Source: an uncultured Victivallales bacterium (GTDB taxonomy: Bacteria; Verrucomicrobiota; Lentisphaeria; Oligosphaerales; JAFGRS01). Taken from it: a DNA stretch of 64,000 bases. The stretch is taken from positions 19,756 to 83,755 of the forward strand of contig CAILUI010000053.1 of assembly GCA_903837355.1 (NCBI GenBank). Direction: 5' to 3'. The notes beneath the pieces were generated by a model. The model was not told where the DNA came from. It did not search any database and saw only the letters and a list, made by a program, of their open reading frames with translations. The translations under genes were made by a program, and so were the position numbers. The first letter of the stretch is position 1; each line of letters begins with the position of its first letter. This document shows positions 2,250-62,989 of the stretch, piece by piece.

Positions 2250-2466
2250 GTAGGATCCCCAATGCGTGTTCAGCGGCCGTACCGATGGCGTGCCCTAACA
2301 TATACGCCCGTCCGCAACCGTGCCGGGAACATCGTATTGCCCTACTGAGAGCAGCCCAGGCCGCCCGGCAAGGCTCCAAGAGAGCTTCCGTGAGGCGACA
2401 ACTGGCGGTGCGTGTGCCAGTGCGCTGCGCCACGGATCCTGAATCCGCCCCGGTCGCCCGGCAACC

Positions 2467-2642
2467 CCTCAGTCAAGTCCGCAGCAGCCGGCTTTGCGGG
2501 CAGGCTTTGGAGGGCGAACCTCCCCAGCCTGCGTGCAGGCGGTGAGCCGTCCCCCGTCTCCGGCCTCTGGCCGGTGGCTCAGCGGCGCATGCGCGCCTGG
2601 GGAGCTTCGCCCTCCAGTGGGTCCGCGCAGACTTGACTGAGG
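2467..2642. repeat. MITE-like inverted-repeat element, copy A (core 2508-2616)
   Basis: Outer 13 bp inverted repeats CCTCAGTCAAGTC (2467-2479) / GACTTGACTGAGG (2630-2642); inner core bounded by TGGAGGGCGAA / TTCGCCCTCCA; flanked by direct repeat CGGTCGCCCGGCA (2451-2463 and 2648-2660). Related copies at 54293 and 62025. Confidence 0.8.
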
Positions 2643-2769
2643 CCTTACGGTCGCCCGGCAGCGCTCCTTGCCCCGCGCCCTCGCCGGCGCTATGCTCCCC
2701 GCCGTGGTCATCCCTGGGGTCGGCGTGTACCAGGCCGGTGCAGGTGGGGTGGCGCGACAGGAGAGAACC

Positions 2770-54268: not shown

Positions 54269-54447
54269 CCTCAGTGAAGTCTGCTCGACCCCTGGAGGGC
54301 GAAGCTCCCCAGGCGCGAACGCGCCGCTGAGCCACCGGCCAGAGGCTGGCGACGGGGGACGGCTCACCGCCTGCACGCAGGTCCTGCTGGCCAGCAGGAT
54401 TCGCCCTCCATAGCGTGTCGGCAGAGCCGGCGGCTCCAGCCTTCACT
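54269..54447. repeat. MITE-like inverted-repeat element, copy B (core 54293-54410)
   Basis: CCTCAGTGAAGTCTGC...TGGAGGGCGAAGCTCCCCAGGCGCGAACGCGCC...GGCTCACCGCCTGCACGCAGG...TTCGCCCTCCA; same order as the reverse complement of copy A. Confidence 0.8.
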
Positions 54448-62024: not shown

Positions 62025-62110
62025 TGGAGGGCGAAGCTCCCCAGGCGCGCACGCGCCGCTGAGCCGCTGGCCGCCGGCCGCCGGCCGGATCTCCCAAACG
62101 GCTCACCGCT
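62025..62110. repeat. MITE-like inverted-repeat element, copy C (right end missing)
   Basis: TGGAGGGCGAAGCTCCCCAGGCGCGCACGCGCCGCTGAGCCG...CGGCTCACCGCT, ending abruptly at the start of the RHS-like ORF. Confidence 0.75.
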
Positions 62111-62989
62111 ATGGACCTCGTCGATGCGGGGACCGCTGCCGTCCTGGCCACTTACGAGTACGGTCCCTTCGGCAACACCCTCGTCGCCCCCGACCCCCCG
62201 GCCGACACCAACCCCATCCGCTTCCCGACCAAGCCCGCCGAGGCAGCCCGTCTGCCCGGTTCTGCCGCCGGTCCCGATCTCTACTACTACGGCCGTCGCT
62301 ACTACAGCCCGGGTCTGGGGCGGTGGACCAGCCGAGATCCGATTGGGGAGGATGGCGGGATCAACCTCCAGGCTTTCGTCCGCAACTCAGCACTGGGCAG
62401 CTTCGACGCTGTGGGCCTCTACGGGTATAACACGTCATTGACCGACAGCAATGACGTAGAGACCCGCTTCAGTAACTCGAGGCCCATCTGGCGGACGTGT
62501 AGCGGGCGAACCGTACGCGTGGGCGATATCGCGCTCGTCAAAGCCTACGTCGATGCCAATCTGACCACTCCGGCAGGCTGGGTTGAGCCGTTCATCACCG
62601 ATGCATCAGGGGCGATCCCTGGAGGACTCCCCGGGGGGCAGATCGGCGAACTCAGAAACCCTACGTATCTGGGAGCCGGTATCGTCATGAGGTTCACCCC
62701 AAGCGCGTCTTGCTGTCCCTGTGTGCACTCCGGCTGGCAGCAACGCATGGTCGCTCCCACGCCAGGTCCCGACTATGCATACCGTGAGACAGCGAGCGCG
62801 TACGATTTCCCCGGGACGATCTACCCCCTTGCCACCGCAGGGAGCGCGACCCACACGTATGCCCTGGAGTTCGTATGCGACGGGGAAGTGCGCGCGTCTG
62901 TCTCGTGGGGGTACACTACGACCATCACCTACCCTCACGGGGCCGCCACGACCGCTTCCGCAACCGTCGATCTGTTCGTCTCTTACTAG
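62111..62989 (+). CDS. RHS core C-terminal fragment with unknown C-terminal domain (detached RHS tip)
   Basis: LVDAGTAAVLATYEYGPFGNTL...LYYYGRRYYSPGLGRWTSRDPIGEDGGINLQAFVRNSALGSFDAVGLYGYN is a canonical RHS core end; about 180 aa of unrelated C-terminus; the rest of the RHS barrel is absent. Confidence 0.88.
   Translation: MDLVDAGTAAVLATYEYGPFGNTLVAPDPPADTNPIRFPTKPAEAARLPGSAAGPDLYYYGRRYYSPGLGRWTSRDPIGEDGGINLQAFVRNSALGSFDAVGLYGYNTSLTDSNDVETRFSNSRPIWRTCSGRTVRVGDIALVKAYVDANLTTPAGWVEPFITDASGAIPGGLPGGQIGELRNPTYLGAGIVMRFTPSASCCPCVHSGWQQRMVAPTPGPDYAYRETASAYDFPGTIYPLATAGSATHTYALEFVCDGEVRASVSWGYTTTITYPHGAATTASATVDLFVSY

Follow-up and report, generated by a model that had tools for sequence, protein, structure and literature searches.

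A TGGAG-tagged REP family with a share of its copies carried in GTAA-ended MITEs

A short sequence with nested inverted repeats recurs in a 64-kb window, the whole stretch of DNA that was analysed, and its copies raise the question of what kind of repeat they represent. The earlier note on this DNA had described three copies of a MITE-like element, A, B and C, and all three are present as described. The sequence TGGAGGGCGAAGCTCC is matched exactly at 2601-2616 (minus strand), 54293-54308 (plus strand) and 62025-62040 (plus strand), with a one-mismatch copy at 2508-2523 (plus strand). At up to three mismatches the window holds seven matches against 1.4 expected, and none of 100 shuffles reaches seven. 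The recurring core belongs to the REPs (repetitive extragenic palindromes): it is an imperfect palindrome with a TGGAG tag, enclosed by MITE ends in some copies and bare in others. The window belongs to a 9.6-Mb, 466-contig assembly (G000); G001 is a genome of a sister genus in the same family. The features in the window are:

2461-2648: copy A, complete MITE with two inverted REPs; ends common to full-length copies in the genome, perfect 9-bp flanking duplication
2452-2460: left target duplication of copy A, GGTCGCCCG, identical to 2649-2657
2649-2657: right target duplication of copy A, GGTCGCCCG, identical to 2452-2460
2461-2482, plus strand: left terminal inverted repeat of copy A, GCAACCCCTCAGTCAAGTCCGC, read from the sequence; end motif found 28 times in G000, 19 times in G001 and 0 times in the control
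2627-2648, minus strand: right terminal inverted repeat of copy A, GTAAGGCCTCAGTCAAGTCTGC on the minus strand; sequence and end-motif matches
2508-2548, plus strand: REP of copy A, ACC/GGT stem type; a 41-mer within the covarying set
2576-2616, minus strand: REP of copy A, AGC/GCT stem type; frame as in the covarying 41-mers, read from the sequence
54269-54284, plus strand: remaining left terminal repeat of copy B, CCTCAGTGAAGTCTGC; sequence and pattern match
54293-54333, plus strand: first REP of copy B, AGC/GCT type; sequence, exact member of the 41-mer set
54361-54410, minus strand: second REP of copy B, a 50-base variant with an extra TCCTGCTGGCCAGCAGGA hairpin; sequence
62025-62065, plus strand: copy C, single REP without terminal repeats; sequence, exact 41-mer member, DNA fold giving the REP stem
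62100-62109, minus strand: copy C, fragment GGCTCACCGC of a second, inverted REP; sequence

Copy A is an intact MITE of 188 bp; its terminal inverted repeats are GTAAKSCCTCAGTSAAGTCYGC, and its 9-bp target duplication is perfect. Its ends coincide with those of full-length copies elsewhere in G000, and it has the attributes by which MITEs are recognised, namely terminal inverted repeats of 15-30 bp, short length, no coding capacity and a target duplication identical at nine of nine positions. The element had been placed at 2467-2642; its ends are indeed conserved, but in copy A they lie slightly further out. It is located between a gene on the minus strand (196-2433) with laminin-G and weak GH43 matches and a predicted gene that starts at 2668 on the plus strand. 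Copy B is a degraded relative of copy A, with a degraded right end and no identified target duplication. Both copies contain two REPs arranged head-outward, as in REPINs and BIMEs. Copy C, which had been taken for a truncated MITE, turns out to be a bare REP core without MITE ends plus a REP fragment, and it ends directly ahead of an ORF starting at 62111 on the plus strand. No transposase was seen in the window, as had been reported, and no Rfam family matched anywhere in its 64 kb. The recurring peptides over the copies are explained simply by translation of the repeat. In the 50-base REP variant, found at 54361-54410 and at other G000 loci, an 18-base perfect hairpin, TCCTGCTGGCCAGCAGGA, replaces the unpaired CCTCCCCAG; REPs of this length number 11 in the G000 sample.

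The REP has the layout TGGAG / GGC / GA / stem / loop / stem' / GA / GCC / G. The earlier note had named as its refutation a genome with only three copies and no terminal conservation. That possibility is itself refuted, since a 20-base core has 307 matches in G000 at up to three mismatches, against 4 for the reversed control, and full-length copies share their ends. The frame TGGAGGGCGA-N4..34-TGAGCC has 328 exact matches in G000 and 0 in the control, its conservation being partly built into the search pattern. The usual G000 REP is 41 bp long and contains an inner stem as well as a TCCCCA that is unpaired on one side. The TGGAG tag is found in nearly all copies, and the tandem GA/GA mismatch in the stem is nearly invariant. 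The family has the high copy number, extragenic location and inverted pairs and clusters of REPs and REPINs, and it is a 20-50 bp imperfect palindrome kept as a hairpin, as judged by covariation, folding and stem swaps between genomes; its tag is not of the GTAG (GYRG/GTMG) type. Only 17 of 100 REPs lie mainly within predicted genes, compared with 86% of random positions, according to our own dicodon gene model. The flanking gene pairs are oriented -- in 31 cases, -+ in 14, ++ in 13 and +- in 12, so that convergent pairs are not in excess. Singles account for 27 of the 69 REP clusters in G000 and pairs for 26, 18 of them head-outward, while the rest are arrays. Direct tandem arrays with periods of 47-64 bp were observed at C462:58028-58480, C97:44434-44645, C112:1-338 and C327:120-479, several of them at contig ends.

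The earlier note had predicted a multi-stem fold of the MITE. Among 48 distinct 41-mers, standard pairs occupy 97.9% of cells, against 79.6% (maximum 83.0%) with partners shuffled, a shuffling that does not preserve relatedness. Several pairs show two-sided changes, such as GC/CG/TA at 12-35 and GC/TA/AT at 23-30, and stem swaps within the constant frame recur between the families of the phylum (AGC/GCT, ACC/GGT, ACG/CGT, AAG/CTT, ATCCCGC/GCGGGAT). A single REP folded as DNA gives the predicted stem, including the GA/GA internal mismatch. Because shuffles reach folding energies at least as good, covariation, and not energy, is the evidence for the hairpin. The core of copy A (2497-2616) does fold strongly, with z of -4.8 and -6.4, a fold made up in large part by its inverted REP pair. 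The two REPs of copy A differ at covarying stem positions, which shows selection on each of them individually. The REPs are thus conserved as individual hairpins and not as one multi-stem MITE fold.

The MITE ends are inverted repeats of about 22 bp, GTAA...TTAC, and are common to other copies. The end motif was counted in G000 (28), G001 (19), G002 (4) and G042 (2), with 0 in all controls, and it is absent from the other 44 genomes searched. From G000, G001 and G002, 26 candidate elements bounded by these ends and carrying a REP-like motif were collected, with ends beginning GTAA or GCAA. Target duplications are mostly of 8 bp: eight candidates have a perfect 8-bp duplication, three, including copy A, a perfect 9-bp one, and two match at 7 of 8 positions, whereas mispaired flanks used as a control match at 7 of 8 or better in 1.6% of cases. 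The duplicated fraction is a lower bound, because some candidates are alternative or loose end pairings. About half of the candidates show no target duplication, and therefore some end pairings are old or spurious. In G042, a 78-bp AT-rich stretch (L209:1442-1519) is bounded by GTAA...CTTCACTGAAGCATTAC, and its flanks match at 7 of 8 positions. It contains no REP and may be a distant MITE that has these ends.

These ends and the REP core had been treated as one element. The outer arm is present in copies A and B, but arm and core are separable modules. Both end remnants are retained in 12 of 62 REP clusters in G000 (0 in the control) and one end in 15 (few in the control), while 35 have none. 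In G001, the same ends and perfect 8-9 bp duplications enclose that genome's own REPs in other arrangements: one element type contains two heads-inward TGGAGGGCGAAGCTCCTGCTGAGCC units (145 bp), another a second REP-like family, TGGAGCGCGAGCGTnCCGCGAGC (104-136 bp), and a further element holds several tandem units of this second family without a duplication. The hairpins between similar ends in G002 are different ones; elements with GTAATGCCTCAGTCGAGTC ends and other hairpin repeats inside, such as CCCAGGGCGTTGCCCTGGGC, are seen at L236:251-584 (G002) and L237-L239, and since several sit at contig ends they appear to be a multi-copy repeat. Conversely, the REP frame with other covarying stems is found in further families of the phylum without these terminal repeats, and none of these MITE ends accompanies the REPs and REP pairs of G315, G255, G257 and G363 in the loci read. 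In these four genomes a G follows GAGCC in 94% of cases and conservation then falls, which marks the boundary of the REP unit. BIME-like arrays in G255 (C172:21554-21744 and C240:4-153) are made up of the stem types AGCTTGCT and ACTTTACGT/ACTTCACGT in alternation, regularly spaced and oppositely oriented. Each module is therefore found without the other, as solo REPs elsewhere and as the same ends around different REPs in G001, yet the two are repeatedly combined, be it that REPs may insert into MITEs or that MITE ends may arise around REP pairs. The MITE reading holds for copy A, with its terminal inverted repeats, perfect duplication and genome-wide copies, but does not fully describe the family, whose REP core is mostly without MITE ends and common across the phylum. 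Outside these genomes, viral contigs matched neither motif and plasmids gave no match to copy A. Four single-copy pattern matches in named genomes of unrelated organisms were judged to be chance.

It is likely that two layers are nested here, with a REP family inside and, outside it, a non-autonomous MITE that carries one, two or more REPs. The REPs are dispersed between genes singly, as REPIN- or BIME-like inverted pairs and in tandem arrays, and may be, or have been, processed as single-stranded hairpins by an HUH-type enzyme. The MITE, with its inverted ends of about 22 bp, duplicates 8-9 bp of target upon insertion. A DDE transposase supplied by another source, IS66-like to judge from the end sequence and the length of the duplications, may act on the ends of the MITE, and MITE transposition would provide one route for REPs to new intergenic sites.

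An account with one MITE family only, in which solo REPs are the surviving cores of end-decayed MITEs and have no mobility of their own, draws on the 12 clusters with both end remnants and the 15 with one, and on the resemblance of copy B to a decaying intermediate. It is nevertheless unlikely in view of the 35 clusters of G000 without a recognisable end, and of REPs with the same frame and the same boundary in G315, G255, G257 and G363, where the loci read have no such ends. That the REPs are chiefly RNA elements, terminators or mRNA stabilisers under intergenic selection whose spread is incidental, seems very improbable. Their extragenic location and covarying stems would fit this explanation too, and tandem GA pairs are stable in RNA, but no Rfam family matches, convergent gene pairs are not enriched around REPs, and REP/BIME expansion typically produces tandem arrays and inverted pairs.

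Among the loci and families searched, no enzyme that moves either layer was found. Y1_Tnp loci were read in 17 genomes, of which 13 carry REPs: 13 loci in G000, others in six relatives and, from ten further genomes, 30 of 52 matches. None of the loci read is flanked by these REPs. By this flanking test, the family is neither a RAYT-associated REP (REPtron) nor a demonstrated RAYT substrate, though it resembles such a substrate. Y1 genes at L179 (G255) and L182 (G005) lie between inverted repeats of their own that are unrelated to the TGGAG REPs, and are candidates for separate REPtrons or TIR-flanked Y1 genes. Genes adjacent to REPs in G315, inspected by eye, appeared ordinary and no transposase was recognised among them. 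For the outer layer, no IS66 transposase (PF03050) was found in G000-G003, and the one PF03050 gene of G042 is without these ends; the IS66 assignment of the MITE ends can serve as a lead only. Among the 100 end matches listed, no convincing inverted pair at 1-4 kb points to an autonomous element. The transposase with matching terminal repeats that the earlier note had proposed to look for was not found in searches of the IS66 and Y1 families in these assemblies. As the assemblies are fragmented and have repeats at the ends of contigs, movers may be missing from them.

Taken together, the findings describe an unusually tagged REP family that extends across the phylum and for which no RAYT has come to light; in two genera, part of it travels within GTAA-ended MITEs. 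A wider possibility, put forward tentatively, is a two-tier mobile system, in which GTAA-ended MITEs would be vehicles for whichever REPs a genome holds, and a DDE transposase would spread RAYT-less REPs. In the sister genus the REPs so carried might be of the TGGAGGGCGA and TGGAGCGCGA types, and in a third genus they might be other hairpins. How REPs lacking a RAYT spread has been posed as a question for CGTC-tagged REPs (PMC3733652), and the presence of REPs, in two genera, inside elements that have clean target duplications offers one concrete route. With stems that are swapped across the phylum while the frame TGGAGGGCGA...GAGCCG stays constant, the family amounts to a natural covariation experiment, and it predicts the contacts of a recognising protein: the tag, the GGC/GCC base stem and the tandem GA mismatch.

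GTAG-tagged REPs, REPINs and BIMEs (PMC3733652, PMC3116915, PMC2817692) are, like the TGGAG REPs, short imperfect palindromes with an unpaired tag at one end, extragenic, present in hundreds of copies as inverted pairs and arrays, and interchangeable in their stems. The TGGAG family differs from the GTAG/GTRG REPs in its tag, and no REP-flanked tyrosine transposase was found for it among the loci read. REPs of E. coli depend on the unpaired tag and on a conserved two-base stem mismatch (PMC8266576), to which the GA/GA mismatch may be likened. The CGTC-tagged REPs likewise have no dedicated transposase adjoining them and set a precedent, although their tag, stem and hosts are different (PMC3733652). 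IS66-family MITEs are recognised by ends that begin GTAA and by 8-bp target duplications (PMC11946415). MITEs of the copy A type resemble them in ends that begin GTAA or GCAA, in duplications mostly of 8 bp and in the lack of coding capacity, but some of their duplications are of 9 bp, their interior consists of REPs, and a search of G000 and its three family mates turned up no IS66 transposase. Composites of a REP and an unrelated stem-loop in Pseudomonas (PMC3733652) similarly join REPs with other inverted repeats in many copies; those composites also flank tyrosine transposase genes, whereas here GTAA ends enclose the REPs and duplicate 8-9 bp.
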